Shown here: one piece after another, positions 27,366 through 60,415 of the stretch
Layout: the number at the start of each line of letters is the position of its first letter
Position numbering within the stretch: position 1 is the stretch's first letter
Assembly: GCF_032051675.1 (NCBI RefSeq)
Contig: NZ_CP116968.1
Location: 2,418,001 to 2,482,000, forward strand
Origin: Candidatus Nitrospira neomarina
Lineage (GTDB): Bacteria; Nitrospirota; Nitrospiria; Nitrospirales; UBA8639
Reading direction: 5' to 3'
DNA: 64,000 nt
Notes under the pieces: generated by a model
Seen by the model: the letters and a program-made list of their open reading frames with translations, nothing else
Databases searched by the model: none
What the model was told of the DNA's origin: nothing
Position numbers and translations under genes: made by a program

Positions 27366-28265
27366 TTAGTGAGGAAGAGAGTGTACGAAGGCATCAAGGG
27401 ATGACATGTCTGAAAAGACCGTGATTTTTTCATTCAAAAAGAGAGAGGAATGGGCTTGCGCAAATTGTCCGCCTACGCCAATGGGTGCGAGGGGTTTAAC
27501 GAGTGAAGTTAATTCCTTGACCATCATCCTGGCCTCCGTGAGGGTACGGTCAACCGTCAGGGAAAGGAGAACATACGATGGGCGGAACTGTTCACAGAAT
27601 TTCGCCAGTTCGGGAATCGGAAGATTGGCCCCTAAATAGTGTACGCGACATCCACGCACCGCGCAGAGGTAGGCTGCCGTCATGGCCGAAATCTCGTGCC
27701 ACTCCTGGGCCGGACAAGCCACAACCACATGCGGATCTCCCTCTGATAATTGAAATTGATTCAGGGCCGAAAAGATTTTCTGCTTGACCTGGTTTGAGAC
27801 GAAGTGCTCTTGGGCGACCCCCATCACGCCGTCATGCCATAGCTGGCCCACCCTCTCCTGTAGAGGAAGCAGGAATCGGTGCAACGCTTCCTCAAACGGG
27901 ATGACAGCCAATGCGCCATTCAGTTTTCGCTGAAAGATGAGCCGATTTCCCTCCTGGATCGCCTGAATCAATTCGGAGATGAGGCCCTCGGAATGCGGTG
28001 TCTCAGCCGCGGATCTCACCCAGTCCTGTTGAGCTAGCCTGAGGAGTGTTTCCCGGCCGGTCTCTGCCAGTTGCCCGATACTCATCCCCTGATCGACTTG
28101 TGATTTCAGGTATCTGAACAGTCGAACATCTTCATCCTTGTAGAGCCTATAGCGATTGGCTCCCCTAGTTGGATCTACTAAACCATAACGTTTTTCCCAA
28201 GCACGTATCACATGTGTCGAAATTCCCGTAAGTTTTGAAAATCGTTGAATTCTATACAGTGCCAT
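27366..28265 (-). CDS. CarH/LitR-type MerR regulator with adenosylcobalamin-binding domain
   Basis: A 299-residue light-sensing repressor candidate. Residues 1-70 are a MerR winged helix (YRIQRFSKLTGISTHVIRAWE), followed by a B12-binding helical bundle and a Rossmann cobalamin domain. The bundle has the CarH signature W-x9-E-H exactly (Trp143, Glu153, His154), and His190 in EWHEI is the lower axial cobalt ligand. In known CarH proteins the dark tetramer binds DNA and light splits adenosylcobalamin, releasing the promoter. It is divergent from the zinc-ribbon/cytochrome genes. ATG 28265 is preferred over an upstream TTG at 28280; no clear ribosome-binding site is present. Confidence 0.88.
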   Translation of the reverse strand: MALYRIQRFSKLTGISTHVIRAWEKRYGLVDPTRGANRYRLYKDEDVRLFRYLKSQVDQGMSIGQLAETGRETLLRLAQQDWVRSAAETPHSEGLISELIQAIQEGNRLIFQRKLNGALAVIPFEEALHRFLLPLQERVGQLWHDGVMGVAQEHFVSNQVKQKIFSALNQFQLSEGDPHVVVACPAQEWHEISAMTAAYLCAVRGCRVHYLGANLPIPELAKFCEQFRPSYVLLSLTVDRTLTEARMMVKELTSLVKPLAPIGVGGQFAQAHSSLFLNEKITVFSDMSSLDAFVHSLPH

Positions 28266-28280
28266 TCTAAGAAAATACAA

Positions 28281-35246: not shown

Positions 35247-36293
35247 ATGAGTATGACCATGACCACACGACTCATCGCCATTGATCACGCGAAAGACCGG
35301 AATGCTGCGGAAAAAGAAGCTCTGACCACGAACCAACTGCAAGACCTGAAACCGCGATTGGGCATCAGCCAATGTTTGCTCGGCGACACGGTTCGATACG
35401 ATGGCGGACACAAACGGGATGCCTTCCTCACAGATGTGCTGGCCCCCTTTGTCGAATGGCTTCCGGTCTGTCCGGAAGTCGAAGCGGGACTGGGCACCCC
35501 GCGAGAGGCCATGCATTTGGCCGGCGATCCCGATGCGCCACAACTCCTGACCATCCGCTCTCACATTGATCACACCATGACACTCCAGACTTTTAGTCAG
35601 CGCCGGGTTCAGGAATTACAAGAAACTGATTTAGATGGATATATTTTCAAAAAAAGTTCCCCCAGTTGCGGAGTCTATCGGGTCAAGGTCTATACCGAGA
35701 AAGGGCAACCTTCTAAACAGGGTACCGGTATTTTTTCAGCCGCCTTTCAAAAAGCGTTCCCCCTGCTCCCTGTGGAGGAAGAAGGACGCTTGAGCGACGC
35801 ACCAATTCGGGAAAACTTTATCGAGCGCATTTTCTGTTATCGGAGGTGGAAAACCCTGTTCCAACAGGGTCGGGTCAGCCGGGGGGCCATTGTCCAGTTC
35901 CATACCCGCCACAAATATTTATTGCTCACCCACAGCCGTTCGCATTATCAGGACCTTGGACAACTCATCGCGAAGGCCGGCCAATACACACCCGGTGAGC
36001 TGGCGGATCACTATGGCCCGCTTTTTATGGACGCCCTGAAAAGCAAGGCCACAGTGCGAAAACATGTGAATGTTCTCCAGCATCTGGCGGGCCACTTTAA
36101 AAACCAACTGAGCCCGGTTGAACGGGCCGAGTTGCAGGAAACCATTCAGGATTACCACCGGCATCTCACCCCCCTGGCCGTGCCGCTCACGCTCATTAAA
36201 CATTATGTGCGCATCCTGGCTGTCCCCTATTTAGTTGACCAGGTCTACCTCAACCCGCACCCCAAAGAACTCATGTTGCGCAACCATGTCTAA
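35247..36293 (+). CDS. DUF523 and DUF1722 (YbgA) two-domain protein
   Basis: A 348-residue protein with an N-terminal DUF523 domain (LGISQCLLGDTVRYDGGHKRD; VEWLPVCPEVEAGLGTPRE; GYIFKKSSPSCG) and a C-terminal DUF1722/YbgA domain (GAIVQFHTRHKYLLLTHSRSHYQDLG; VRKHVNVLQHLAGHFKN). DUF523 includes a cysteine-rich putative metal or thiouracil-desulfurase-like site. The same fusion is a standing member of photolyase-linked light-response loci. The MerR regulator's start overlaps its stop by eight bases, so it is co-translated with the second CarH-like protein. Confidence 0.9.
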   Translation: MSMTMTTRLIAIDHAKDRNAAEKEALTTNQLQDLKPRLGISQCLLGDTVRYDGGHKRDAFLTDVLAPFVEWLPVCPEVEAGLGTPREAMHLAGDPDAPQLLTIRSHIDHTMTLQTFSQRRVQELQETDLDGYIFKKSSPSCGVYRVKVYTEKGQPSKQGTGIFSAAFQKAFPLLPVEEEGRLSDAPIRENFIERIFCYRRWKTLFQQGRVSRGAIVQFHTRHKYLLLTHSRSHYQDLGQLIAKAGQYTPGELADHYGPLFMDALKSKATVRKHVNVLQHLAGHFKNQLSPVERAELQETIQDYHRHLTPLAVPLTLIKHYVRILAVPYLVDQVYLNPHPKELMLRNHV

Positions 36294-37233
36294 CAGTCCA
36301 AAAGATTCCCAGACCTTTCGGATTAAATCTGTGGCCAGTACCACTGGACTCAGCACTCACGTGATCCGGAAATGGGAAGAACGCTACCATTTAGTCCATC
36401 CGCAGCGAGGCCCTAACGGCTATCGACTCTTTACCGAAGAAGACATTCAATTTCTCCTCTATTTGAAATCACAATTGGATCATGGTGAATCCATTGGTCA
36501 ATTGGCCCAAGCCGGGGAGCAGGAACTCCGACATTCGATGAATCATGTCCCTCTCAACCTCTCGGGGATAGCCCCCACCTATTGGAATGACACCCAGGAA
36601 ATGATTCGCTTGGCGCGCCACCAGGACGTCCAGGCCATTACCATCATGCTTGAAAAGTGGATTAATCATATGGGGCTTGAGAAAGCCCTGGAGAGCATTA
36701 TTTTTCCGGTCTTGCGTCTGATCGGCGACCTGTGGCATCAAGGAGGGATGAGTCTGAGGGGGGAACAAAGCGTGAGCCGGTTGGTGCGTCAACACCTCAT
36801 TAACGTTCTACGCGAAGAACCTCCTCTGGGAGGACCGCACGCCTTAATCGCCTGTGTGCCTGGAGACTTTCATGAAATTGCTCCACTGACCGCGGCGGTC
36901 CTTTTACGAGGACTTGGATGGCACAGCATCTATCTCGGGCCCAATGTTGCATTTGAGATGCTGGAAATGGCTCTGCGCCGGAAACACACACAGCTCATTC
37001 TCCTTTCCTGCAATCTTGAACCGGAAGAGAAAATACTACGGTCCTGGCTGCAAAAGATCACTCGACATCTTCAACCATTGTGTGCGGTAATGGTGGGAGG
37101 ACCTGGGTTTAAACCGTATGAGCCTCTTTTTCGCACTCACAACATTACATATTTCACCCAAGTCCATGATGTCAAAACGTTGAAACAACGAACTGGCATG
37201 GCTGAAAGCGCCAGGGCTTTCCACCCATTATAA
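36286..37233 (+). CDS. CarH-like MerR regulator with B12-binding domain, altered motif
   Basis: A 315-residue paralogue of the regulator at 27.4 kb. MerR winged helix at 12-70 (SVASTTGLSTHVIRKWEERYHL), helical bundle, and cobalamin Rossmann domain with the lower ligand His196 (GDFHEI). The W-x9-E-H motif of CarH is W-x9-E-Q here: Trp150 and Glu160 are kept but His becomes Gln161. That residue shapes the upper face of adenosylcobalamin, so photochemistry or cobalamin form could differ. The ATG at 36286 overlaps the preceding DUF1722 gene by 8 bases. A CbiX-like gene follows. Confidence 0.87.
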   Translation: MSNSPKDSQTFRIKSVASTTGLSTHVIRKWEERYHLVHPQRGPNGYRLFTEEDIQFLLYLKSQLDHGESIGQLAQAGEQELRHSMNHVPLNLSGIAPTYWNDTQEMIRLARHQDVQAITIMLEKWINHMGLEKALESIIFPVLRLIGDLWHQGGMSLRGEQSVSRLVRQHLINVLREEPPLGGPHALIACVPGDFHEIAPLTAAVLLRGLGWHSIYLGPNVAFEMLEMALRRKHTQLILLSCNLEPEEKILRSWLQKITRHLQPLCAVMVGGPGFKPYEPLFRTHNITYFTQVHDVKTLKQRTGMAESARAFHPL

Positions 37234-37265: not shown

Positions 37266-37775
37266 ATGTCAGAACCTCACAAAGCTATTCTTCTTGTCGG
37301 ACACGGAGGCATTCCCAAAGGATACCCATCGGATCTCATTACAAAATTGAAACGCCTTGAAGCCCAGCGAAGAGCAACAGGCAGTCCCATGTCGCCCGAA
37401 GAATTGGAATTGGACACCAAGGTTCGCACATGGCCGCGGACACCTGAGACAGATCCGTACAAGGCTGGCCTCGAAACCCTCGCAGCCGCCATGAAGCCAC
37501 TCTTAAATGGTTCATTGTTTGGCCTGGCGTATAACGAGTTCTGTGGACCGACACTCGCCGAAGCGGTTGAATCCCTCATTCGCCAGGGCGCACAGACCAT
37601 TACGGTGGTCTCGACTATGTTTACTCCTGGAGGATCACATTCCGAAAGTGAAATCCCCGAAGAACTGGAAGAACTCCGCAAGAAACACCCGAAGGTCACC
37701 CTCATCTATGCCTGGCCCTATAATCTGGAAAAGGTCTCAAAAATGTTGATGGAGCACGTCCAACAATTTTCATAG
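37266..37775 (+). CDS. CbiX/SirB-like metal chelatase family protein
   Basis: A 169-residue chelatase-fold protein. ILLVGHGGIPKG carries the N-terminal catalytic histidine and TVVSTMFTPGGSHSESEIPEE the second metal-binding histidine, as in short CbiX. The segment FGLAYNEFCGPTLAEAVESLI is typical. Such enzymes insert cobalt into sirohydrochlorin early in anaerobic B12 synthesis, or iron for siroheme. An insert of about 35 residues after the first motif (KLKRLEAQRRATGSPMSPEELEL) is longer than in CbiX_S and may change specificity. GAAGGAG precedes it. Adjacent to a B12-sensing regulator, which suggests a tetrapyrrole link. Confidence 0.75.
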   Translation: MSEPHKAILLVGHGGIPKGYPSDLITKLKRLEAQRRATGSPMSPEELELDTKVRTWPRTPETDPYKAGLETLAAAMKPLLNGSLFGLAYNEFCGPTLAEAVESLIRQGAQTITVVSTMFTPGGSHSESEIPEELEELRKKHPKVTLIYAWPYNLEKVSKMLMEHVQQFS

Positions 37776-38255: not shown

Positions 38256-39506
38256 ATGAAGAATGCTGATGTGCTCATCATCGGAGCCGGCCTTGCCGGA
38301 CTTTCCTGCGCAAAGACCTTAGCGGATCATGGGATAGATTTTTTACTTCTTGAAGCATCCGAAGAGGTAGGAGGGCGAATTGGATCAGATCATCTCGACG
38401 GCTTCATTCTCGACCGGGGCTTCCAGGTCTTTTCCACGGCTTATCCCGAAGCCAAACGCATGCTGGATTATCCTTCCCTTGAGCTTCATCATTTTTTCCC
38501 TGGTGCGGTGATTCGGTCTCTTGGAAAATGGCATCGAATGCCGGATCCCTTTCGCCATCCCTTACAGAGCATTCACGCACTTTTCAATCCTATTGGTACC
38601 CTTTCAGATAAAATTCGGGTGGCCAAATTTCGCCATCTGGCCCGGTCAGGAAATCTGAATGATCTCTTTCAAAGGCCCGAAACCACAACATTCCAACACC
38701 TCAAAAATTTCGGATTTTCCTCCTCCATAATCGAACGATTTTTTCGACCATTCCTTAGTGGTGTCTTTTTGGATCCTGAATTACAGACTTCCAGTCGTAT
38801 GGCGGAATTTGTCTTTCGGATGTTTGCGTCTGGAAACATTTCACTTCCCGCCAGGGGGATGGGAGCCATACCCCGACAACTGGCATCCGGTCTTCCAGCA
38901 GGACGAATTCGAACTCAAGCGAGGGTCACATCCATTCAGAAAACATCGGTGACCTTGGAATCCGGGGAAGTCCTCTCCGCTCGCGCCAGTGTCCTGGCCA
39001 CCGACGGACCAGCCGCAACGAGTCTTGTTCCCGGCCTCAAATCATCTTCCTATCGCAGTGTGACCTGTTTCTATTATGGCGCCCCTGAACCGCCCTTTTC
39101 AGGGCCATTTCTGTTATTGAACGGAGAGGGAGCCGGCCCAATCAATAACCTCTGTGTCCTCACTCAAATCGCCCCGAACTATTCCAGGACCAAAAGCCAG
39201 TTGATCTCCGTTTCAGTGCTCAACCATGCTGATTCTTCCACAAAAGACCTTGCCACCCGGGTTCGCCAACAATTGCGGGAATGGTTTGGCTCACCAGTCG
39301 AAGACTGGCAGCCAATTCGCGCCTATCACATCGCAGCCGCTCAACCCGTCCAGGTCCCACCATTCCCTAACCCGCTCTCCCGTCAGACACATGTTCAGGA
39401 TGGCGTCTTCGTCTGTGGGGATTTTTGTGCCACCGGGACTATTGATGGAGCCATCTTTTCCGGTCGCCGTGCGGCGGAGGATATTCGAAAATGGCTGGAG
39501 GCATGA
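38256..39506 (+). CDS. FAD-dependent amine oxidase/phytoene-desaturase-like protein
   Basis: A 416-residue flavoprotein with the N-terminal dinucleotide fold VLIIGAGLAGLSCAKTLADHG, the following EVGGRIGSD, LDRGFQVF, a central substrate domain, and a C-terminal GVFVCGDFCATGTIDGAIFSGRRAAEDI that closes the FAD site. Close relatives are NAD(P)/FAD-dependent oxidoreductases near carotenoid or light-stress genes; some act on carotenoids or aromatic amines. No phytoene synthase is in this window, so carotenoid desaturation cannot be claimed. No clear ribosome-binding site. Confidence 0.83.
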   Translation: MKNADVLIIGAGLAGLSCAKTLADHGIDFLLLEASEEVGGRIGSDHLDGFILDRGFQVFSTAYPEAKRMLDYPSLELHHFFPGAVIRSLGKWHRMPDPFRHPLQSIHALFNPIGTLSDKIRVAKFRHLARSGNLNDLFQRPETTTFQHLKNFGFSSSIIERFFRPFLSGVFLDPELQTSSRMAEFVFRMFASGNISLPARGMGAIPRQLASGLPAGRIRTQARVTSIQKTSVTLESGEVLSARASVLATDGPAATSLVPGLKSSSYRSVTCFYYGAPEPPFSGPFLLLNGEGAGPINNLCVLTQIAPNYSRTKSQLISVSVLNHADSSTKDLATRVRQQLREWFGSPVEDWQPIRAYHIAAAQPVQVPPFPNPLSRQTHVQDGVFVCGDFCATGTIDGAIFSGRRAAEDIRKWLEA

Positions 39507-45014: not shown

Positions 45015-45899
45015 ATGATCCAAATCACCTATTTGAGTTCGGCCACACGAGCCATGTCTCAGGGTGACTTAGAAGACATTCTGAAAACGGCCCGAGAAAA
45101 TAATGCCCGCTTAGGCATCACCGGAATGTTGCTCTATGGCAATAAAACCTTTATTCAAATCTTGGAAGGTGAAGAGGGCGTGGTTGATGAATTAGTCAAA
45201 ACCATCAAACGCGATCCGCGTCATACCAATTTTCAGATTGTCAAGAAAAAGCTTATCGACCAGCACGAATATGCCGACTGGAGCATGGGCTTTAAACGGG
45301 TCTCCGGCGAGGACTTTGAGGCAGTCAAGGGACTCGAGGATTTTGAGGAGAAGAATTTCAATACGATGTTTTTGGGTAGTCATGCGAGTCTGGTCGACTC
45401 CTTGATGGATCATTTCCGGAAGGAGCGAATCAAAAAAATCGGCCAGGAAGAACTCTCCCTGGATGAAGAAGATCGGTTCATGAAAATTCTTCATCACATT
45501 ATTCGTGGAGCCGTAAAGGTTCTGGCCGTTCTGATGGTCTTTACCATTCTCTGGGGCGTGGTTGATGTCGTATATATCCTCTATCAACAGCTACTGGCCC
45601 CCACCTTTACCACCTTCAGCATTCGGGATATTGTCACGACCTTCGGTGCCTTTATGGCCGTGCTCATCGCTATAGAAATTTTTATTAACATTACCCTCTA
45701 TATTCGCAAAGATGTTATTCATGTCAAATTAGTCGTGGCCACCGCTCTGATGGCGATTGCCCGAAAGGTCATTATATTTGACTTTTCAAAAATCACCCCA
45801 CTTTATATTTTCGGCACGGCGACTGTGGTGTTGGCTTTAGGCATTACCTACTGGCTGATCGACAGACCGTTGCCCACAGGTGAGTCAGAAAATCAATAG
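45015..45899 (+). CDS. BLUF photoreceptor fused to PsiE-type membrane domain, copy 1
   Basis: A 294-residue blue-light sensor. Residues 1-95 are a BLUF flavin domain with all key residues: Tyr6, Asn30, Gln48 (FIQILEGEE) and Trp89/Met91 (DWSMGF). A charged helical linker (about 100-155) leads to a four-helix membrane domain that matches PsiE (phosphate-starvation-inducible E): VFTILWGVVDVVYILYQQL, AIEIFINITLYIRKD, VATALMAIARKVIIFD and a final VVLALGITYWLI. A BLUF sensor joined to PsiE is unusual; output is unknown. AGGGGGA precedes the ATG. The next gene is a near-identical copy. Confidence 0.9.
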   Translation: MIQITYLSSATRAMSQGDLEDILKTARENNARLGITGMLLYGNKTFIQILEGEEGVVDELVKTIKRDPRHTNFQIVKKKLIDQHEYADWSMGFKRVSGEDFEAVKGLEDFEEKNFNTMFLGSHASLVDSLMDHFRKERIKKIGQEELSLDEEDRFMKILHHIIRGAVKVLAVLMVFTILWGVVDVVYILYQQLLAPTFTTFSIRDIVTTFGAFMAVLIAIEIFINITLYIRKDVIHVKLVVATALMAIARKVIIFDFSKITPLYIFGTATVVLALGITYWLIDRPLPTGESENQ

Positions 45900-46100
45900 A
45901 TACCCACGACCTTTCGGAGGTGGTGTTTTGAATTTCGCGCTTCGCCCGTTTTGCTCTGTCGTGGCCTATCCCTGACATCATGGACACATCTGAACCACTC
46001 GAGAATGTCCGTACAGGGAGAGCATGAAAACCCGCGAAGGCTTAAAAGCACGTTCCAGGATGCCTTCCTACAAAAACGGGTTCGGAACGAGATTGAACCC

Positions 46101-46985
46101 ATGATCCAAATCACCTATTTGAGTTCGGCCACACGAGCCATGTCTCAGGGTGACTTAGAAGACATTCTGAAAACGGCCCGAGAAAATAATGCCCGCTTAG
46201 GCATCACCGGAATGTTGCTCTATGGCAATAAAACCTTTATTCAAATCTTGGAAGGTGAAGAGGGCGTGGTTGATGAATTAGTCAAAACCATCAAACGCGA
46301 TCCGCGTCATACCAATTTTCAGATTGTCAAGAAAAAGCCCATCGACCAGCACGAATATGCCGACTGGAGCATGGGCTTTAAACGGGTCTCCGGCGAGGAC
46401 TTTGAGGCGGTCAAGGGACTCGAGGATTTTGAGGAGAAGAATTTCAATACAACGTTTTTGGGCAGTGATGCGAGTCTGGTCGACTCCTTGATGGATCATT
46501 TCCGGAAGGAGCGAATCAAAAAAATCGGCCAGGAAGAACTCTCCCTGGATGAAGAAGATCGGTTTATGAAAATTCTTCATCACATTATTCGCGGAGCCGT
46601 AAAGATTCTGGCCGTTCTGATGGTGTTTACCATTCTCTGGGGCGTGGTTGATGTCGTATATATCCTCTATCAACAGTTACTGGCCCCCACCTTTACCACC
46701 TTCAGCATTCGGGATATTGTTCCAATATTTGGTTCATCGTTAGCGCCAATCATTGCCATAGCAATTTTCAAAAACATTACGCTCTATATCCGCAAAGATG
46801 TTATACACATTAAATTAGTCGTGGCGACCGCATTAATGGCCATCGCTAGAAAGGTGATCATTTTCGATTTCAAAGAGATGACCCCGCCCTATATTTTTGG
46901 AACCGCTGCGGTCGTGTTGGCTTTGGGTATCACCTACTGGCTCATCGAAAGACGGCTCACCTGGAGTGAGCCGGATAATCTGTAA
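46101..46985 (+). CDS. BLUF photoreceptor fused to PsiE-type membrane domain, copy 2
   Basis: A 294-residue paralogue of the preceding gene. The first ~205 residues differ at only a few positions (for instance KKKP for KKKL and FLGSDAS for FLGSHAS), whereas the membrane half after SIRDIV diverges strongly (IVPIFGSSLAPIIAIAIFKNI against IVTTFGAFMAVLIAIEIFINI). BLUF residues Tyr6, Asn30, Gln48 and Trp89 are kept. An upstream in-frame ATG at 45951 could extend it by 50 residues, but the conserved start is 46101; no good ribosome-binding site is seen, so it may depend on coupling. Both copies may be expressed from one transcript. Confidence 0.87.
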   Translation: MIQITYLSSATRAMSQGDLEDILKTARENNARLGITGMLLYGNKTFIQILEGEEGVVDELVKTIKRDPRHTNFQIVKKKPIDQHEYADWSMGFKRVSGEDFEAVKGLEDFEEKNFNTTFLGSDASLVDSLMDHFRKERIKKIGQEELSLDEEDRFMKILHHIIRGAVKILAVLMVFTILWGVVDVVYILYQQLLAPTFTTFSIRDIVPIFGSSLAPIIAIAIFKNITLYIRKDVIHIKLVVATALMAIARKVIIFDFKEMTPPYIFGTAAVVLALGITYWLIERRLTWSEPDNL

Positions 46986-47765: not shown

Positions 47766-48281
47766 ATGCAAAAACTCATCTTTGAACAAAATCCGGAAAT
47801 CCAGATCCCGAGGCGAGGGCAAGAGTCTGTTTGGAATTACCCCCGTCCACCCAGACTGCAGCGGGTTCATCAACAAATGAGAGTTGAGTTTGGGGGTTTG
47901 GTCTTGGCTGAAACAACCCAGGGCTATCGGGTACTCGAAACAGGAATCCCTCCGGTATATTATTTTCCCCCCACTGATGTCCGAATCGCCTACCTGATGC
48001 TGAGCGTAAGGCAAACCGTATGCGAGTGGAAAGGAATGGCGCGTTATTGGTCAATTAAAATGGGGAAACGACTGGCGGAAGATGCCGCATGGAGTTACCC
48101 ACATCCCGGGGAAGGGTTCGAAGATATTTCCAATTATTTAGCATTTTATCCCGGGAAGGTGGATGCCTGCTATGTGGGAAAGCAAAAGGTCAAACCACAG
48201 TCTGATGAATTTTATGGCGGGTGGATCACCTCAAAAATCCTCGGTCCCTTCAAAGGCGAACCAGGCACCGCATTCTGGTAG
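47766..48281 (+). CDS. DUF427 family protein
   Basis: A 171-residue single DUF427 domain, essentially complete: ESVWNYPRPPRLQ, VEFGGLVLAETTQGYRVLETGIPPVYYFPP, SVRQTVCEWKGMARYW, AAWSYPHPGEGFEDISNYLAFYPGKVDACYV and FYGGWITSKILGPFKGEPGT. The family is widespread and small; the role is unknown, and it often occurs near oxidative- or light-stress genes. AGGA stands 8 bases before the ATG. It faces a decayed dehydrogenase on the opposite strand. Confidence 0.9.
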   Translation: MQKLIFEQNPEIQIPRRGQESVWNYPRPPRLQRVHQQMRVEFGGLVLAETTQGYRVLETGIPPVYYFPPTDVRIAYLMLSVRQTVCEWKGMARYWSIKMGKRLAEDAAWSYPHPGEGFEDISNYLAFYPGKVDACYVGKQKVKPQSDEFYGGWITSKILGPFKGEPGTAFW

Positions 48282-48348: not shown

Positions 48349-48745
48349 CTATCCCAACGCCGGACAGAGGTTAGCCATTGGTACAGGAAGAACTGCTTCA
48401 TCACCAGCAGATGAGATCAACACAATCGAACCACCTCCGCCTTTCATCATGACTCGTGCAGCTGCGCGAAGTACATAAAAGGCGGAATGCAGATTGTTGA
48501 TTATTGTTGCATCCCACTCCCCGTCTCTCGTCAAATGAGCAGGCTTGAGAAGAAAGGATCCGACGCAATGGACCACACCGTCGATACGGCCATAGCGTTC
48601 GGCGATGTGATCGAAACATTGCTTAACCTGTTCAGGCGAAGTAGCGTCAATGACGAAAGGATCCACTCCTGTCTCAGCTGAGAGGCTTGAGATTTTTTCC
48701 TAACTACGGGAGGCGGCGACAACTTTCGCCTGCTTCTTTTCGAAT
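48349..48745 (-). pseudogene. Decayed short-chain dehydrogenase
   Basis: Minus-strand translation shows the middle of an SDR: HIAERYGRIDGVVHCVGSFLL, then TIINNLHSAFYVLRAAARVM and GGGSIVLISSAG. Upstream in the same frame, AKVVAASRS is followed by an in-frame TAG and then EKISSLSAETGVDPF, so the reading frame is broken; the glycine-rich N-terminus cannot be found and the catalytic Tyr-x3-Lys part is missing after PMANLCPALG. This is a remnant. SDRs of this type are normal partners of photolyase in light-response loci. Confidence 0.75.
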
Positions 48746-49081
48746 TTAGCAGGGTTCCCAGGTCAAGCAGTCCGACAGCACGAATGCCCTCTGCGATGAG
48801 ATCAACGACCAACGCTATATCATTATGGGCGGCTTCGAACATCCAGTGAAGGATTTGGAACATGCGACGAGTCACATTCCAATGTGAATGAGGGGTCTTC
48901 AGATATCGCGTGCTGGAATCAGAAAACCGAGCCGATCAATCTTCAATAGATTTTCGATCACGCTTTCCATGATGCCAATATTTGGTTTCATTTGTTATTT
49001 TCCCTGCTTCCTGATTTACACGGATCATGCGCATATTAAAAAACCTTCACTCTCGGTGCCTACCTGATCTTCATGGCTGAC
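48746..49081. other. Intergenic region, about 340 bp
   Basis: Probably the eroded 5' part of the SDR remnant plus spacer to the cytochrome gene. I could not recover an SDR nucleotide-binding glycine motif in any frame, and I see no other feature. Confidence 0.35.
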
Positions 49082-49552: not shown

Positions 49553-50075
49553 GTGGCTTAGGGCCTCCTCTCCCGTTTTTTACCTGAATGCATTTGATCA
49601 CTGGAAACAATTCCCACATATCATGCCGAATACTAACATTTGTGGGATGGTCGAAACTAAATGTTTGTCAAATGTTGGATAATTTTGCCTAACTTGAGCT
49701 CTCAGATCTCTGTCTTCCGTGTTGCTGACCTTCACCACACCCAGCAACGCTGGGCTCGAAAAAGAGTGTGATGTTCCATCAAGTGGTCGTCTAGAGCTGG
49801 ACAAAAAACCTTTGACCGGTTTGCGGGTAAAAACCCGAATTTTTTAAAAACTATGGACTTACCTCTCAGGAGTGATAGGCCGAATGTCCGGCGGAAGTCT
49901 GTTCCCACCAAATATGGAAATAAACCCCCGCAATTATTTGTCGAAGGATTGAGTATTTTGATTGTTTGAGCTCCTTAAATGCACGATATGATAAAGAATG
50001 AAGAAATGCCAGCGAACGCATGCGACAACCGATGCTGCCGACCAGGCCCTTACACAGACTAGGCGGTTCGAGGGT
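49553..50075. other. Divergent intergenic region, about 520 bp
   Basis: Separates two cytochrome genes. Besides the motif at 49657-49673, it holds a small hairpin CCCAGC-AAC-GCTGGG near 49741. The long minus-strand open frame across 49934-50365 overlaps a real cytochrome gene and is rejected. Nothing else is recognised. Confidence 0.4.
49657..49673 (+). promoter_or_regulatory. Copy of the TCTAATGTTTGTCAA-type motif
   Basis: CTAAATGTTTGTCAAAT on the plus strand matches the copies in the CarH-like control region (28.3 kb) at most positions. It is about 105 bases before the cytochrome lipoprotein that reads leftward and its complement contains TTGACA, a possible -35 box for that gene. Confidence 0.55.
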
Positions 50076-51431
50076 ATGTCTGTGGTCATTACCAGGAGAC
50101 CCACCAAGACCCACTTCATCTTATTGGTCGTTGTAGGTCTGTTGTTGATCGCAGCGGAATTTGTTCCAAGTCCGGGGTGGTCACAGAATAAGGGAGAATC
50201 GCAAGAAGATCTCATCTGGCTCGATGAAATTGAGAAAGCCTTTATCCCCTCCAGCCAGTGCAGGCAATGCCATGAACGCCATTTTGAAGAATGGAAAGGT
50301 ATGAGGGAACGTAGTGAGGATTTGTTGTCATTTGGACGGATGGACGGGGGGCTGCTGCATGGCACAGCCCTGAAGTCTCCTGTCTTCAGAACTGTGCTTG
50401 GTTTGTGGCTTCAAACTTATCCCACGCATGAACAACGAACAAAATGCCTGGCTTGCCATGTCCCAGCGGTCACCGTCTTTCCCCAACATGCAGATCGGAT
50501 TATTGACCAAGTCATGAGAGGACCGAAACACGTTCAAGTGGAAGGCATCGGATGTGCCTCCTGCCATCTCATTCAGGCCTCAGGGGGAAAGAATGATGCT
50601 TATCCGGCATTTCAACTTGCCCCTGGATCCACATTTTTCGGCCCGTATGGTGATGCAGAGGATAACCTGGCCCATCAATCACAAAAGGCGGAGATCTTTA
50701 AAGGAGCGAATTTCTGTACCTCCTGCCACTTCAGCAAGGTCAAGGATGTCACACAACCACATCTGAACGGAGCCATTTTGAAGGACCTGGTTTGCCAAAA
50801 TTGTCACATGGAACAATCTTATGGCAGCTCCACCGACAAGGGTGGGACGCACTCCAGATCCCTGGCTCGCCACTGGTTTCAGGGAGTCGTGGCGCCTGGA
50901 ATCATGTTGAGTAATCGCAACGTGCAGGCAGAATGGACATCACGCCTCGATATCGAAATCACACAGACCACCTCCTCGGTTCAGGGTACTCTGCATGTGC
51001 CTAATGGCAGCTTGATACACATGTTCCCAGGGGGAGACCCTGTTCTCAAGCAATTCATCGTGAAAGTTATGGTGAAGGACCAAACAGGAGCTCTCATTGG
51101 TGAAGAGGCCAAAACATTCGGGCGCTCATTTGAAGAATTATTAAGAGGACCAATTCCCCAACCCCTGGTCAACAGCGGTATCACCCGCCATATTCCCTTC
51201 AATATTGCGGTCCCGGAAGACTCCACTCCGGCGTTCATCGAGGCCACAATTAGCTATGCTCTTATGCCGAAACCCGGAGAAGAATTACAGAGCCGCTATT
51301 TGGCGACCTTGTCTGGAGAAAAGCAGCGAAATGAGGCTTTACAAATAGTTGAACACTATACTGCTCCCCGTCTCCTGACATTTCGCACGAAAGCTTTGGA
51401 AACAATTCCCCATCCATTGGAAAAAACATGA
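50076..51431 (+). CDS. Five-heme c-type cytochrome
   Basis: A 451-residue exported or membrane-anchored cytochrome. A hydrophobic segment (residues 13-30) is followed by five C-x2-C-H motifs at about 62 (CRQCH), 124 (CLACH), 160 (CASCH), 214 (CTSCH) and 240 (CQNCH), then a heme-free beta domain of about 200 residues. The heme-binding half resembles cytochrome c554-type proteins. Role: multi-electron transfer in the periplasm; partner unknown. The next multiheme gene overlaps by four bases (ATGA), so both are made together. An upstream in-frame start at 49998 is possible. Confidence 0.85.
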   Translation: MSVVITRRPTKTHFILLVVVGLLLIAAEFVPSPGWSQNKGESQEDLIWLDEIEKAFIPSSQCRQCHERHFEEWKGMRERSEDLLSFGRMDGGLLHGTALKSPVFRTVLGLWLQTYPTHEQRTKCLACHVPAVTVFPQHADRIIDQVMRGPKHVQVEGIGCASCHLIQASGGKNDAYPAFQLAPGSTFFGPYGDAEDNLAHQSQKAEIFKGANFCTSCHFSKVKDVTQPHLNGAILKDLVCQNCHMEQSYGSSTDKGGTHSRSLARHWFQGVVAPGIMLSNRNVQAEWTSRLDIEITQTTSSVQGTLHVPNGSLIHMFPGGDPVLKQFIVKVMVKDQTGALIGEEAKTFGRSFEELLRGPIPQPLVNSGITRHIPFNIAVPEDSTPAFIEATISYALMPKPGEELQSRYLATLSGEKQRNEALQIVEHYTAPRLLTFRTKALETIPHPLEKT

Positions 51432-52702
51432 ACCGACTTGGCGTCATCTATAAAAGGAACCGGGCGCTCTTTTGGGGAGTCATGGTCATCTTCGGAATCT
51501 TGATGATCAATGCCATGACATCATTTCACCAGATGATCTTGCCACGCGCTCTGGCAGGCAGCAATTCCAGCGTTCCGGATAAGCCACTGGAAAAAGCCTT
51601 TCCGCCGTCCCACAAATGCCAGCGATGTCATTTACGTGCTTATGAAGAATGGGAGTCTTCCGCACAATCCCGATCTATTGAAACTGCGCCCTTTCGAGTC
51701 ACCCTGGACCGATATCTTCAAACCGCGCCAACGGACCAGCAAAAAATGTGTTTTCAATGCCATGCTCCTCATATTTTGAAATACGGGCACCTGTTTCAGG
51801 ATTTTGTTGAGGAAGTCAAATCGAAAGATCCGCAGATTGACGGAGTCGGATGTTCGCAATGCCATTTGATTAGCGAGGTGGATTCCAGCATCCGTCCCCC
51901 TCACCCCATTTTCTCGCTAGGTAAAACGCTTTTTGGGGGTTATGACAATCCCAAAAAAAACCTCGCTCATGATTCGCAAAAGCTTGACCTGTATACGAAG
52001 TCTCAATATTGCGTGACCTGTCACCAATCTCTTCCTTCTCAAAACGGCGCCATCACCCATTCGGACTGGTTGGGAACCTGGCAAGAGACCAAGGCTGAAC
52101 AGAATGGAAAAACATGCCAGTCTTGTCATATGCCGGAGGCATTTGGTGAATCGGCCACAGGGGAACCATCCAGGCGAATCGCCAATCATAGCTTTCCGGG
52201 ACGGTTTGGAAAAGTGAGGGCCAATGCAGTTGAATTGGAGTTCACGGCCCATGTGAAAGGGCAGGTGTCCGAAGTGGAAGTGACCATCCACAGCCTGGTC
52301 CCTCACAATCTGCCCTTGCCCCACCCTGGTTGGTCTCGCATCGTGCTCGACCTGACCATTCTTGGGAAAAATCTCAACAAAGTGCATGGTGAGCAACGTT
52401 TTTATGAGCGCATGTATATCGATTCAGAGGGTGCCCAAACCGTGTTTGATTTTGAGGCCGTCAAAATCTTGAAGGATACGTCCTTGAAGCCTGAAGAAAA
52501 ACGGGTCGAGAAATTCAGCTTTCCGACTCCGGCGGATGCCCCCTCGATGGACGTCATCGTCACCATGAGTTATGCGCCAGTGCATGGTTCGGATGATTTT
52601 TTGAAAGCTATCGAAGACGAAGCGACCCTTGGACGAAAAGATCGTTCCTTTCAAAAGGTGCTTATTAAAGAGGAAAGGGCAAACGTCCCGATCTCATCAT
52701 AA
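51428..52702 (+). CDS. Five-heme c-type cytochrome, second of a pair
   Basis: A 424-residue paralogue of the preceding protein: membrane anchor or signal (about 13-33), C-x2-C-H motifs at residues 64 (CQRCH), 108 (CFQCH), 142 (CSQCH), 195 (CVTCH) and 230 (CQSCH), then a heme-free beta-rich C-terminal domain including SLVPHNLPLPHPGWSR. The shared order of hemes and the DNLAHQSQK/KNLAHDSQK segment show duplication from a common ancestor. ATGA overlap with the upstream gene points to a stoichiometric pair. The 29-residue membrane protein follows immediately. Confidence 0.85.
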   Translation: MNRLGVIYKRNRALFWGVMVIFGILMINAMTSFHQMILPRALAGSNSSVPDKPLEKAFPPSHKCQRCHLRAYEEWESSAQSRSIETAPFRVTLDRYLQTAPTDQQKMCFQCHAPHILKYGHLFQDFVEEVKSKDPQIDGVGCSQCHLISEVDSSIRPPHPIFSLGKTLFGGYDNPKKNLAHDSQKLDLYTKSQYCVTCHQSLPSQNGAITHSDWLGTWQETKAEQNGKTCQSCHMPEAFGESATGEPSRRIANHSFPGRFGKVRANAVELEFTAHVKGQVSEVEVTIHSLVPHNLPLPHPGWSRIVLDLTILGKNLNKVHGEQRFYERMYIDSEGAQTVFDFEAVKILKDTSLKPEEKRVEKFSFPTPADAPSMDVIVTMSYAPVHGSDDFLKAIEDEATLGRKDRSFQKVLIKEERANVPISS

Positions 52703-53792: not shown

Positions 53793-55226
53793 ATGACAAC
53801 AGACACCTCCCCTGTCGTCGTCTGGTTTCGGCAGGATTTACGCATCAAGGACAACCCGGCACTGTTGGCCGCCCATCAAACAGGGCATCCTATCGTCCCG
53901 TTATTTATTCTGGATGAGGAAAATAGCGGAGAGTGGCAGTTAGGGGGAGCCAGCCGATGGTGGTTGCATGAAAGTCTCAAGGCACTGAACGAAGCATTGG
54001 ATGGCAAACTTTGCTTCAAGGCAGGACCGGCACAAAACATACTAATGGACGTCATCAAAGGGGTAGGAGCAGAAGCGATTTATTGGAACCGGTGTTACGA
54101 GCCCTGGCGAATCACTAGCGATGACGACGTTCAAGAGACATTGCAGACCAAAGGAATCGAGGTGCACACCTTTAACGGGGCCCTGCTTTTTGAACCCCAA
54201 ACAGCGCTTAAAAACGACGGCACTCCTTATAAGGTGTTCACGCCCTTTTATCAAAAAGGATGTCTCGGAAATGGCAATGAACCCCGACAACCCTCAAAAG
54301 CCCCAAAAGATTTAAAGCTATCCACACACAGAGGTGTGGCACTGATAGATTTAAAACTGCTGCCGGCCGTTCCCTGGCATAAAAAATTCATAAACCATTG
54401 GAAGCCCGGGGAAACCGGGGCACAGGCCCGACTGAAGGCATTTCTCAAAAACGGCCTCAAACAGTACAAAGAAGGCCGGAACTATCCTTCTGGAAATAAT
54501 GTCTCCCGATTATCGCCGCATCTGCATTTCGGAGAAATCTCACCGAATGAGGTGTGGTATGCCGCCAAACAACGCATGGGCACGGAAGGATGGCGGAAAG
54601 ACGGGGAAACCTTTCTGAGTGAGCTAGGATGGCGGGAGTTTTCCCATAGTCTGCTCTTCCATTTCCCCGACCTCCCCCGAAAAAATCTGCAAAAGAAATT
54701 TAATAAATTCCCCTGGCGTAAGGACCAGAAATCTCTGAAAAGATGGCAACAAGGCCAAACCGGATACCCCATCGTGGATGCCGGCATGCGGGAGCTGTGG
54801 GAAACCGGTTACATGCATAACCGCGTACGCATGATTGTCGGATCGTTTCTGGTCAAAAACCTTATGTTGCATTGGCATCTGGGGGAGGATTGGTTCTGGG
54901 ATACATTAGTTGATGCCGATCTTGCCAACAACAGTGCCAGCTGGCAATGGATCGCAGGCTGTGGAGCCGATGCCGCACCGTATTTTAGAATTTTTAACCC
55001 CGTCACGCAGGGGAAAAAGTTTGATCAAACCGGCGAGTATGTTCGACGGTTTATTCCCGAGTTAAAAAAAGTGCCAGACAAATATCTCCATAATCCATGG
55101 GAAGCGCCTGAAAAAGTGTTAGTGCAGGCGGATGTGCAACTTGGAGAAGATTATCCCCTACCGATCGTCATGCTCAGCGATTCCAGGGAGCGAGCGTTGA
55201 AAGCATTTTCTGAATTGGCATCGTGA
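53793..55226 (+). CDS. phr: Class I deoxyribodipyrimidine photolyase
   Basis: A 477-residue light-driven DNA repair enzyme that splits cyclobutane pyrimidine dimers. N-terminal antenna domain starts with VVWFRQDLRIKDNPAL; the FAD domain contains SRLSPHLHFGEISP, FLSELGWREFSHSLLFHFPDL, TGYPIVDAGMRELWETGYMHNRVRM and LADADLANN-type DADLANNSASWQWIAGCGADAAPYFRIFNP, all diagnostic. Tryptophans of the electron relay are visible (W in NSASWQW). It is separate from the other light genes by unrelated respiratory genes, and no copy of the TCTAATGTTTGTCAA motif was found directly upstream. Confidence 0.95.
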   Translation: MTTDTSPVVVWFRQDLRIKDNPALLAAHQTGHPIVPLFILDEENSGEWQLGGASRWWLHESLKALNEALDGKLCFKAGPAQNILMDVIKGVGAEAIYWNRCYEPWRITSDDDVQETLQTKGIEVHTFNGALLFEPQTALKNDGTPYKVFTPFYQKGCLGNGNEPRQPSKAPKDLKLSTHRGVALIDLKLLPAVPWHKKFINHWKPGETGAQARLKAFLKNGLKQYKEGRNYPSGNNVSRLSPHLHFGEISPNEVWYAAKQRMGTEGWRKDGETFLSELGWREFSHSLLFHFPDLPRKNLQKKFNKFPWRKDQKSLKRWQQGQTGYPIVDAGMRELWETGYMHNRVRMIVGSFLVKNLMLHWHLGEDWFWDTLVDADLANNSASWQWIAGCGADAAPYFRIFNPVTQGKKFDQTGEYVRRFIPELKKVPDKYLHNPWEAPEKVLVQADVQLGEDYPLPIVMLSDSRERALKAFSELAS

Positions 55227-57556: not shown

Positions 57557-60415
57557 CTATAGTTTTTGGTCGTTTTCAGAGATGTGCGGCTTTGTTCGCA
57601 CCACTTCAGAATCAACAGCATTGAGGTTTCCCGAGTTCAATACAGTCGCCCACATTTTTCTTCTGGCCTCCTCCATGTTTTCAATCTTTACGCCGGCCGC
57701 TACCAATTCACGTTCATGGGTTTCGACACGTAAAGACTGAACATAATGAACGATATCCCAAATTTCAGCAGAAGTCAGTTGGTCCTGATAAGCCGGCATG
57801 GGCCCCCCGCCAATTCCAACCAATAACGTCTTGAAAATATGCTGGCTCCCATGCCCCAATTTCACTCCACCCGAAACCCCTGCAGGAATGGTCAAATTGG
57901 CCGGCTTGATGGGTTGCTTCCAGAAGTTCTTGAGTAAGCCGGACAGTGGTCCATTACCTTTCCCTTCGTTTCCATGGCAAATCATGCAATTTTGGAGGAA
58001 AAGCGATTTTCCCTGTTCCAGTGATGATGCTGTGACTATCGGTTCAGCCGGGACTGAGACGGGTTGAGGGATTTCATTTTTCTCCCAGCGATCTGAAAAT
58101 GTTTTGATGTATTGAATGACCGCCAACCGTTCACGCTCCGATATCATGTACCAGGCAGGCATTGATGTCCCCCACAGACCATGGGTGAGAGTGGCGAAAA
58201 GGTCTGTATCGGTTGGGAGCGCGTCTACTCCGGGCGTAGATTTAAATTTGAAAATGCCTGCGATGAAATTCCTGGGCTTGGGATTCAAAAATTCGGCTGC
58301 CGGACCATTTCCATCTCCCTTGATCCCGTGGCATCCCGTGCATCGCCGTTCGTAGACATACGCCCCTAACTCCAACAGATCCTTCCTGGCCTGGGGTGTG
58401 ACCTTGGCCGGATAACTTCCCCCCGCCTGAGTCGACGAAAAGCCTTCACGCCAGTCTCCGATCGACGTTCCCAGCCTTTGAAGGTACGCGACAAGGGCTT
58501 GCCCTTTTTCGTTTACTTTTGGAATGCCTTCCTCAGGTGGTTCAAACAACCAGGTGTAAGCCGGCATGATTGAATCGGCCACAACGAATCGAGGATCCCA
58601 GAGGTGAGCCACGTGCCAGTCGTCCCCATACTTTCTCCCAATGCGGGAAAGATCGGGCCCGATTCTTCGAGTGCTGAAAAGGTGCGGCCGATCAAAGGCA
58701 TATTCGCCGGCCTGGGCTATGGGGCCCCACCGGTCCGAGTCGCCGCTAACCGGCCTGATGTATTGGGAGTGGCAATACCAACACCCTTCCTGGATATAGA
58801 CCTGCCGGCCCTGAAGTTCTAATGGGGTATAGTCCGAGACCTGAATGCGTTGCTCGGTGACTTCATCGGCAACGGTGGTCTCAAGGGTTTCCGCCATCCT
58901 CATGGGAAGAATTCCTTGAATGATCACGGCGAAAGAAAAAAACCCGATTCCCGCCGTGACGAAAACGGTGGATGGGGTTTCCAGCCAATTCGGTTTGTGG
59001 AGCGGACGAATCGGAATGGCATCGGGTGGCTTTGCTTCAGATTCACCCTGCTCAATCGGCACACCCTCCTTTGCCGTCTTGTAAAAATTCCAGATCATGA
59101 GAAAGGTCGGAAAACTCATCGTGATACCGCCCACTGTCCGGGAGATCCACCATGGTTTCATCTGATTCATGGCATCGACAAAATTGGTTCCGTTCGCGAG
59201 CATAAAACCTTGAATCAGGCCCTGAGCGGTAAGCCCGAAGGCCATAACGACGAAACCTACGATTCCAAGCCATAAATGCCAACTGGCTAATTTGTCGCTC
59301 CAAAGTTTCCGACCAACAAGATGGGGCCAAACATAATACAGCGATCCTATTCCCCACAGAGCCATCGCCCCAAAGGCCGTGAGGTGAGAGTGGGCAATCA
59401 CAAAATCATTGAAGTGGGTCACCGCTTGGACACGACGCAGTCCTTCCACTGAGCCCTGTGTGGTCCCGAGTAAATAATAAAAGGCGCCAAGCATGAGAAA
59501 CTTCGCCGCATAATTTCCCCCGCCTCCCCGACCAAGCACCTCCTTCCACCGACCCTTCATGGTCCCCCAAAAGTTTGCGGTGACGGAGAGCACCGGGATG
59601 ATCAGGAGCATGCCGGTGGCGATGGCAATGGTCTGCGTCCAATGGGGGATGGGGCTGTAAATGTAATGGTGGGTCCCTACGAAGGGATACACCAGAGCCA
59701 GAGCCCAAAAACCCAAAAGCGACAATTTATGGCTAAACAATGGACTGTTTGCGCTGAGGGGAAGAAAATAATAAATCATGGCCAGACCGGCTGGAGTCAT
59801 CCACAGTCCGACCACATAGTGAATATACAGACCATGCATGGCCGCGCTGTTGACGCCCGTAATTTGGCCATATGGGAGAAACGCGTTGCCGAGGACGAGA
59901 TTAAACAAGGTCCAGGTCAGAGCCGCGATCGTGTACCACAGTGCAACATAGAACCGGGGCTCGGTCCGGCGATAAATGGTCCCGAAGACTTGGATGGTGA
60001 TGAGGAAGAGGGCGGTAAACCGCAGAATGTTTAGGGGCCATTCGTATTCCGCTACCTCCAGGCCGAGATTGTACCCCATGAGAAGCGACGCCGAGCCGGC
60101 AATCAGGAAAGCATTCCAAAGGCCCAAAACCAACCATCCCCAGCTCTCCTTGTACATGCGGATTCCGCATAACCGGGGAACAAAATAATAGATCATCCCG
60201 AGAAAGGTCGTCGAAAATGCACCAAAAATAACCCCATTCACATGGACGGGCCGTACCCGTCCGAAACTCAACCACGAGATGTTCGCTAAAAATTCAGGAT
60301 TATGAAACTTGATGGCAACCGTTACTCCTATCAGGGGGAAGAGAGCAAACCACACAAAAGCCCACGTACACCATGCCTTGACCAAAGAACGGTTTACCAG
60401 CGAGTCTTGATGCAT
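57557..60415 (-). CDS. cbb3-type cytochrome oxidase: CcoN-CcoO-CcoP triple fusion
   Basis: A 952-residue single polypeptide that would reduce O2. Residues 1-450 are CcoN (about 12 helices) with heme b and CuB ligands His58, His199, His249-His250 and His342/His344; Tyr314 aligns with the catalytic tyrosine. Residues 475-670 are CcoO with one heme (CWYCH at 545). Residues 675-905 carry two CcoP-like hemes (CTGCH at 692, CMICH at 810). The usual helix-VII STFEGP reads GTTQGS, so the conserved Glu is Gln. No separate ccoO or ccoP is nearby. Start ATG 60415 has no strong ribosome-binding site. Confidence 0.88.
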   Translation of the reverse strand: MHQDSLVNRSLVKAWCTWAFVWFALFPLIGVTVAIKFHNPEFLANISWLSFGRVRPVHVNGVIFGAFSTTFLGMIYYFVPRLCGIRMYKESWGWLVLGLWNAFLIAGSASLLMGYNLGLEVAEYEWPLNILRFTALFLITIQVFGTIYRRTEPRFYVALWYTIAALTWTLFNLVLGNAFLPYGQITGVNSAAMHGLYIHYVVGLWMTPAGLAMIYYFLPLSANSPLFSHKLSLLGFWALALVYPFVGTHHYIYSPIPHWTQTIAIATGMLLIIPVLSVTANFWGTMKGRWKEVLGRGGGGNYAAKFLMLGAFYYLLGTTQGSVEGLRRVQAVTHFNDFVIAHSHLTAFGAMALWGIGSLYYVWPHLVGRKLWSDKLASWHLWLGIVGFVVMAFGLTAQGLIQGFMLANGTNFVDAMNQMKPWWISRTVGGITMSFPTFLMIWNFYKTAKEGVPIEQGESEAKPPDAIPIRPLHKPNWLETPSTVFVTAGIGFFSFAVIIQGILPMRMAETLETTVADEVTEQRIQVSDYTPLELQGRQVYIQEGCWYCHSQYIRPVSGDSDRWGPIAQAGEYAFDRPHLFSTRRIGPDLSRIGRKYGDDWHVAHLWDPRFVVADSIMPAYTWLFEPPEEGIPKVNEKGQALVAYLQRLGTSIGDWREGFSSTQAGGSYPAKVTPQARKDLLELGAYVYERRCTGCHGIKGDGNGPAAEFLNPKPRNFIAGIFKFKSTPGVDALPTDTDLFATLTHGLWGTSMPAWYMISERERLAVIQYIKTFSDRWEKNEIPQPVSVPAEPIVTASSLEQGKSLFLQNCMICHGNEGKGNGPLSGLLKNFWKQPIKPANLTIPAGVSGGVKLGHGSQHIFKTLLVGIGGGPMPAYQDQLTSAEIWDIVHYVQSLRVETHERELVAAGVKIENMEEARRKMWATVLNSGNLNAVDSEVVRTKPHISENDQKL

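Follow-up and report, generated by a model that had tools for sequence, protein, structure and literature searches.

Tandem genes joining a BLUF domain to a PsiE-type membrane domain in a light-response island suggest a type of membrane photoreceptor not described before

INTRODUCTION

To our knowledge, only soluble BLUF proteins have been described to date, and their outputs are cyclases, EAL domains, regulatory functions, or protein contacts. We likewise know of no activity for PsiE by itself. Nitrifiers and methane oxidizers are harmed by light. In a 2014 survey, 64% of BLUF proteins were short and 34% were EAL fusions (PMC4844311), in agreement with an initial annotation of the DNA studied here, which had described EAL domains, cyclases, and short helical caps as the usual BLUF outputs. 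LitR-type regulons are known in Pseudomonas (PMC9758184), RudS genes are known members of light-responsive operons (PMC11417400), and the tLST stress island carries a distant PsiE beside KefB (PMC8290217). In the open-access literature we found no paper on a BLUF protein that is transmembrane or fused to PsiE, and the architecture may perhaps already be listed automatically in domain databases.

Here we describe two adjacent genes, each of which joins a BLUF domain to a PsiE-type membrane domain. The fusion suggests a membrane photoreceptor of a type not described before, a variant of the BLUF photoreceptors. A conserved transmembrane BLUF, if true, would be a new route by which blue light acts on a membrane, and it could serve as an optogenetic tool.

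RESULTS

The window (the whole 64-kb stretch of DNA analyzed) contains two adjacent fusion genes on the plus strand, as the initial annotation had reported:

45015..45899, plus strand: copy 1, BLUF-PsiE fusion of 294 amino acids (open reading frame, Pfam)
45015..45290, plus strand: BLUF domain of copy 1, residues 1-92 (Pfam)
45513..45866, plus strand: PsiE domain of copy 1, residues 167-284, with four predicted transmembrane helices (Pfam, model)
45675..45677, plus strand: Glu221 codon of copy 1, GAA
46101..46985, plus strand: copy 2, BLUF-PsiE fusion of 294 amino acids counted from the homologous ATG (open reading frame, Pfam)
46599..46955, plus strand: PsiE domain of copy 2, residues 167-285 (Pfam)
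46761..46763, plus strand: codon 221 of copy 2, GCA, encoding Ala in place of the conserved Glu

The start of copy 2 was placed at ATG 46101, homologous to that of copy 1; the mechanical open reading frame begins at TTG 45951. The 4.80-Mb genome has no BLUF domain besides these two; it also encodes two further PsiE proteins elsewhere, distant from the PsiE of the fusions. Three NxrB-like genes (G000:C1, 2932299, 2945725, and 3360359) identify the host as a nitrite oxidizer; one of the three was checked and matched nitrite oxidoreductase subunit B (E = 2.4e-178).

The sensor half matched the BLUF family (PF04940) over residues 1-92 and all 92 model positions (E = 2.3e-31 for copy 1 and 5e-32 for copy 2), and the Pfam scores of the BLUF and PsiE matches both far exceed the gathering scores. 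In an alignment of 26 fusion sequences, Tyr6, Asn30, and Gln48 were invariant and Trp89 was present in 25. All four residues stand where the annotation had placed them. An AlphaFold2 model of the full protein (42-sequence alignment; mean pLDDT 72, pTM 0.47) showed a BLUF fold together with a pair of cap helices, plus four long hydrophobic helices at residues 154-194, 203-232, 237-253, and 262-283. Residues 1-140 of this predicted model superposed on PixD-type short BLUFs, including the cap helices (Foldseek, VIA-align), and the BLUF half reached a Z score of 19 to 1x0p/2hfn. Because these residues cover a short BLUF protein together with its cap helices, the sensor module is complete, with the membrane domain appended behind it. 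By sequence and model, this PixD-like module spans residues 1-143 and includes both cap helices; the whole-model Pfam match and the predicted fold both bear out the claim of a complete BLUF domain. The BLUF half is predicted to bind flavin and to face the cytoplasm; with BLUF inside the cell, the Arg-Lys loop at residues 231-236 would also lie inside, fitting the positive-inside rule.

The C-terminal half passed the profile match to PsiE (PF06146) that its proposed identity called for, with E values of 8.5e-37 in copy 1 (residues 167-284, model positions 3-119 of 122) and 1.7e-34 in copy 2 (residues 167-285). Its membrane nature and four helices, also proposed earlier, agree with hydropathy and with the four long hydrophobic helices of the AlphaFold2 model; a model of the PsiE half was of middling confidence (pLDDT 71, pTM 0.51). 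The “phosphate-starvation” label given to the output was not supported. On the curated equivalog model of E. coli PsiE (NF002763), the two proteins scored 15.6 and 10.7 bits, with the cut-off at 138, and because this cut-off was missed, phosphate starvation should not be transferred to the fusion. No solved structure related to the PsiE half was found by profile search, and two comparisons of our own prediction with the PDB gave no significant fold match; the weak helical bundles returned (Foldseek E ≥1.2, NINJ1 first; VIA Z of ∼10, an OST subunit and Orai) were not interpretable.

Conservation was unevenly distributed along the fusion, with mean pairwise identities of 59% in PsiE, 84% in its TM2-TM3 core, 48% in BLUF, and 34% in the short, variable linker. 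Asp184, Asn225, Arg250, Lys251, and Asp256 did not vary among the 26 fusions or in a 50-row PsiE alignment, and these charged and polar residues sit in or near predicted helices. Glu221 was kept in every aligned relative except the copy 2 types. The same PsiE core was also conserved in stand-alone proteins that have no sensor. Since no part of the fusion is conserved more strongly than the PsiE half, we take this half to be a working output rather than an anchor.

The two copies differ chiefly in their output halves: codons 1-206 are 98% identical in DNA, but codons 207-294 only 71%. The output half of copy 2 was nearer to that of another Nitrospirales lineage (loci L005 and L006, 88-90%) than to that of copy 1. 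The tandem pair recurs in a sister species of the same genus (G253), where copy 2 again carries the Glu221Ala replacement; this rules out an assembly artifact. Within each of the two genomes, the sensor halves were nearly identical (dS of 0.063 and 0.015), compared with a dS of 0.12-0.13 between the species. These halves evolve in concert, for which gene conversion is the simplest explanation. In copy 2, codons 225-294 showed a dN of 0.051 against a dS of 0.60 between the species, which indicates purifying selection on this output half, and copy 2 is therefore a retained variant rather than a decaying duplicate. Given that it pairs the same sensor with an output lacking Glu221, copy 2 probably acts as a partner, dominant or modulatory, and does not simply duplicate the activity of copy 1. 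At another locus (L003:7068-7454), a truncated second BLUF follows the fusion, a decayed remnant of a tandem copy.

A scan of the genome collection detected full-length fusions in Nitrospirales, Nitrospinota, Methylococcales, and Candidatus Nitrotoga with related Betaproteobacteria, and the plasmid collection held a full-length homolog (62% identity) in the purple sulfur bacterium Candidatus Thiodictyon, named by NCBI only “PsiE family protein.” This recurrence of the full-length form across many genera argues against a chance joining. In a sample of 296 Nitrospirota, only the genus of the window yielded the full fusion; 8 of 21 genomes of this genus carry it, one as a contig-end fragment. On a poorly resolved tree of the PsiE half, the origins of the fusion may have taken 4-5 changes, with 1-2 forced by the starred branches. 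Viral contigs yielded no relative. At L039:5309-6495, a short BLUF gene lies divergent from a stand-alone PsiE gene, 279 bp apart, so that the parts of the fusion occur there as separate neighbors. The longer N termini of four stand-alone PsiE open reading frames (L036, L062, L066, and L074) appear to be over-extensions and not other sensor fusions.

Both fusion genes belong to a light-response island in the window, in which CarH-like MerR-B12 regulators, a photolyase, and RudS occur together:

27366..28280, minus strand: second LitR/CarH-like regulator, besides LitR2, in which the CarH motif retains its W, EH, and His
35247..36293, plus strand: RudS-type gene (2-thiouracil desulfurase domain plus DUF1722)
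36289..37233, plus strand: LitR2, a LitR/CarH-like MerR regulator with B12-binding domains, in which the EH of the CarH Wx9EH motif reads EQ
37266..37775, plus strand: CbiX-like gene (Pfam on the homolog in L005)
38256..39506, plus strand: flavin amine oxidoreductase (Pfam on the homolog in L005)
47766..48281, plus strand: DUF427 gene, whose homolog in L006 lies between fusion and photolyase
53793..55226, plus strand: DNA photolyase/cryptochrome-family gene, the sole PF00875 match in the genome
61453..63862, plus strand: CFA-type methyltransferase, DUF2878, and DUF1295 genes

LitR2 has the W, the E, and an axial-type His, with Q as the second H of the motif, and both of its B12 domains were detected with weak to clear scores. 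Of 24 fusion loci, 12 have photolyase, RudS, or LitR genes nearby, as against 0 of 56 loci with a stand-alone PsiE (P = 4.5e-8). The 12 loci represent at least four lineages (Nitrospirales, Nitrospinaceae, Methylococcales, and Methylohalobius) but are not fully independent, as the context counts lack phylogenetic independence. Several methanotroph fusion loci have no light cluster. Within the genus, photolyase was present in all eight fusion-bearing congeners and in 5 of 13 others (P = 0.007), and in three congeners (G191, G300, and G303) it shares the strand of the fusion and starts ∼120-200 bp away. At best, this adjacency reflects co-regulation or a shared purpose. The initial annotation had tied the genes to light through the light sensitivity of nitrite oxidizers; the host is indeed one, but the link is better supported by the photolyase/LitR/RudS island than by host physiology alone. 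A search of the 64-kb window for the LitR box T(G/A)TACA-N12-TGTA(C/T)A returned two matches with two mismatches each, at chance level and none at the fusions; this box is Pseudomonas-type, and the operator of this lineage may differ. Alignment of the fusion upstream regions showed a purine-rich stretch resembling a ribosome site, and no shared operator was recognized in it.

Other genes share the window. Two successive multiheme cytochrome genes with many CxxCH motifs occupy 49998-52702, and such genes adjoin the fusion in L003 too. On the minus strand, 48349-48875 holds a short-chain-dehydrogenase-like sequence across two overlapping frames, possibly a pseudogene, and 57557-60415 encodes 952 amino acids in which, by eye, a cbb3-type oxidase subunit and, behind it, several CxxCH cytochrome c stretches form a single chain.

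The neighborhoods of stand-alone PsiE genes provide a lead to PsiE function. The stand-alone proteins of sulfur oxidizers and others are 60-70% identical to the PsiE of the fusion. In seven loci, a P-type cation ATPase gene lies 9-44 bp from the stand-alone PsiE gene or overlaps it; at L028, L032, L034, L040, L058, L059, and L081, the abutting ATPase is Ca-type-like, and KefB-type or NhaA antiporters lie near several. Overall, cation transporters (P-type ATPase, KefB-type or NhaA antiporter) were found near 12 of 56 stand-alone loci and 0 of 24 fusion loci, so the association with ion transport comes from the stand-alone relatives only. PsiE-GI of tLST was found on plasmids with 33% identity to the PsiE half, and an Azonexus plasmid has the gene order NhaR-PsiE-mechanosensitive channel. 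Because its free-standing kin adjoin cation transporters, we consider the handling of ions or protons the likeliest output of PsiE. At four stand-alone loci (L064, L069, L070, and L071), PsiE lies 35-82 bp from divergent matches to a GGDEF-EAL query; in L064 this neighbor carries GGDEF, EAL, and Tll0287-like sensor domains by Pfam.

DISCUSSION

We favor, with a little more belief than doubt, the reading that each gene encodes a membrane-embedded blue-light photoreceptor whose PsiE bundle alters ion or proton handling in photoprotection. Blue light would rearrange the hydrogen-bond network of Tyr6 and Gln48, the cap helices would relay this change to the first membrane helix, and the four-helix PsiE bundle would then alter the handling of ions or protons by the membrane. 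Together with the island's photolyase, RudS, and LitR genes, this altered handling would help to defend the cell from damage by light and UV; since such genes accompany the fusions, photoprotection is their most likely purpose. We regard it as doubtful that BLUF gates the PsiE bundle outright, which would make the protein a natural flavin-based blue-light-gated ion or proton effector and copy 2, without Glu221, a built-in non-conducting or modulatory subunit.

The main rival is that the fusion acts as a membrane-tethered BLUF anti-repressor, which in the light binds LitR2 at the membrane so that photolyase, RudS, and the island genes are derepressed. The action of E. coli BluF on BluR and of PmSB-LOV on PmlR2 offers precedents (PMC9758184), LitR2 lies in the same island with its altered motif, and LitR-like genes were found at 5 of 24 fusion loci versus 0 of 56 stand-alone PsiE loci. 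However, LitR2 retains the W, E, axial-ligand-type His, and both B12 domains, and may therefore sense light itself; the Pseudomonas-type LitR box did not rise above chance in the window, and an 84% identical membrane core would be needless for a tether. We consider this account possible but unlikely.

Conservation also bears on whether PsiE is a mere membrane or dimerization anchor that places BLUF by a membrane enzyme encoded elsewhere, without an intrinsic output. Such a role would suit a domain that, alone, has no activity known to us. BLUF proteins commonly act through protein contact, short BLUFs being the bulk of the family (PMC4844311). Yet conservation is highest in the PsiE half, whose predicted helices hold invariant charged residues, and its core is also kept in stand-alone, sensor-free proteins; we think an anchor improbable. 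Fusions are frequent among chemolithotrophs and methanotrophs, and PsiE relatives occur in stress islands, as might be expected if BLUF were a redox or flavin sensor through which the fusion reports oxidative stress; but all BLUF photochemistry residues are invariant and the photolyase/RudS/LitR context favors light, which leaves this explanation very improbable. Under the favored reading of a membrane photoreceptor, the sensor would serve as an on/off switch and so as a handle for assaying what PsiE does, and the fusion as a handle on how nitrifiers and methane oxidizers perceive light.

Compared with the PixD-type short BLUFs (Tll0078 and Slr1694; also BlsA and BlrB), residues 1-140 of the fusion align over the whole fold and cap helices (Z of 18-19, 26-32% identity), but those proteins stop after the cap helices, whereas the fusion continues into a four-helix membrane domain. 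It matches the whole model of the PsiE family (PF06146) at E = 1e-34 or better but carries a sensor, and it is not the equivalog of E. coli PsiE (NF002763). The E. coli BluF/BluR system likewise has BLUF fused to an output domain and a MerR regulator nearby; the output of BluF is EAL, whereas the fusion has a membrane PsiE output with no EAL match in Pfam, and its regulator is LitR/CarH-like. In Pseudomonas mendocina, PmSB-LOV and PmlR2, a class II LitR, likewise place a blue-light flavoprotein in a LitR-photolyase setting (PMC9758184). In contrast to PmSB-LOV, which is a soluble LOV protein, the fusion is a BLUF protein predicted to reside in the membrane, and the B12 domain is retained to a greater extent in LitR2 than in class II regulators.
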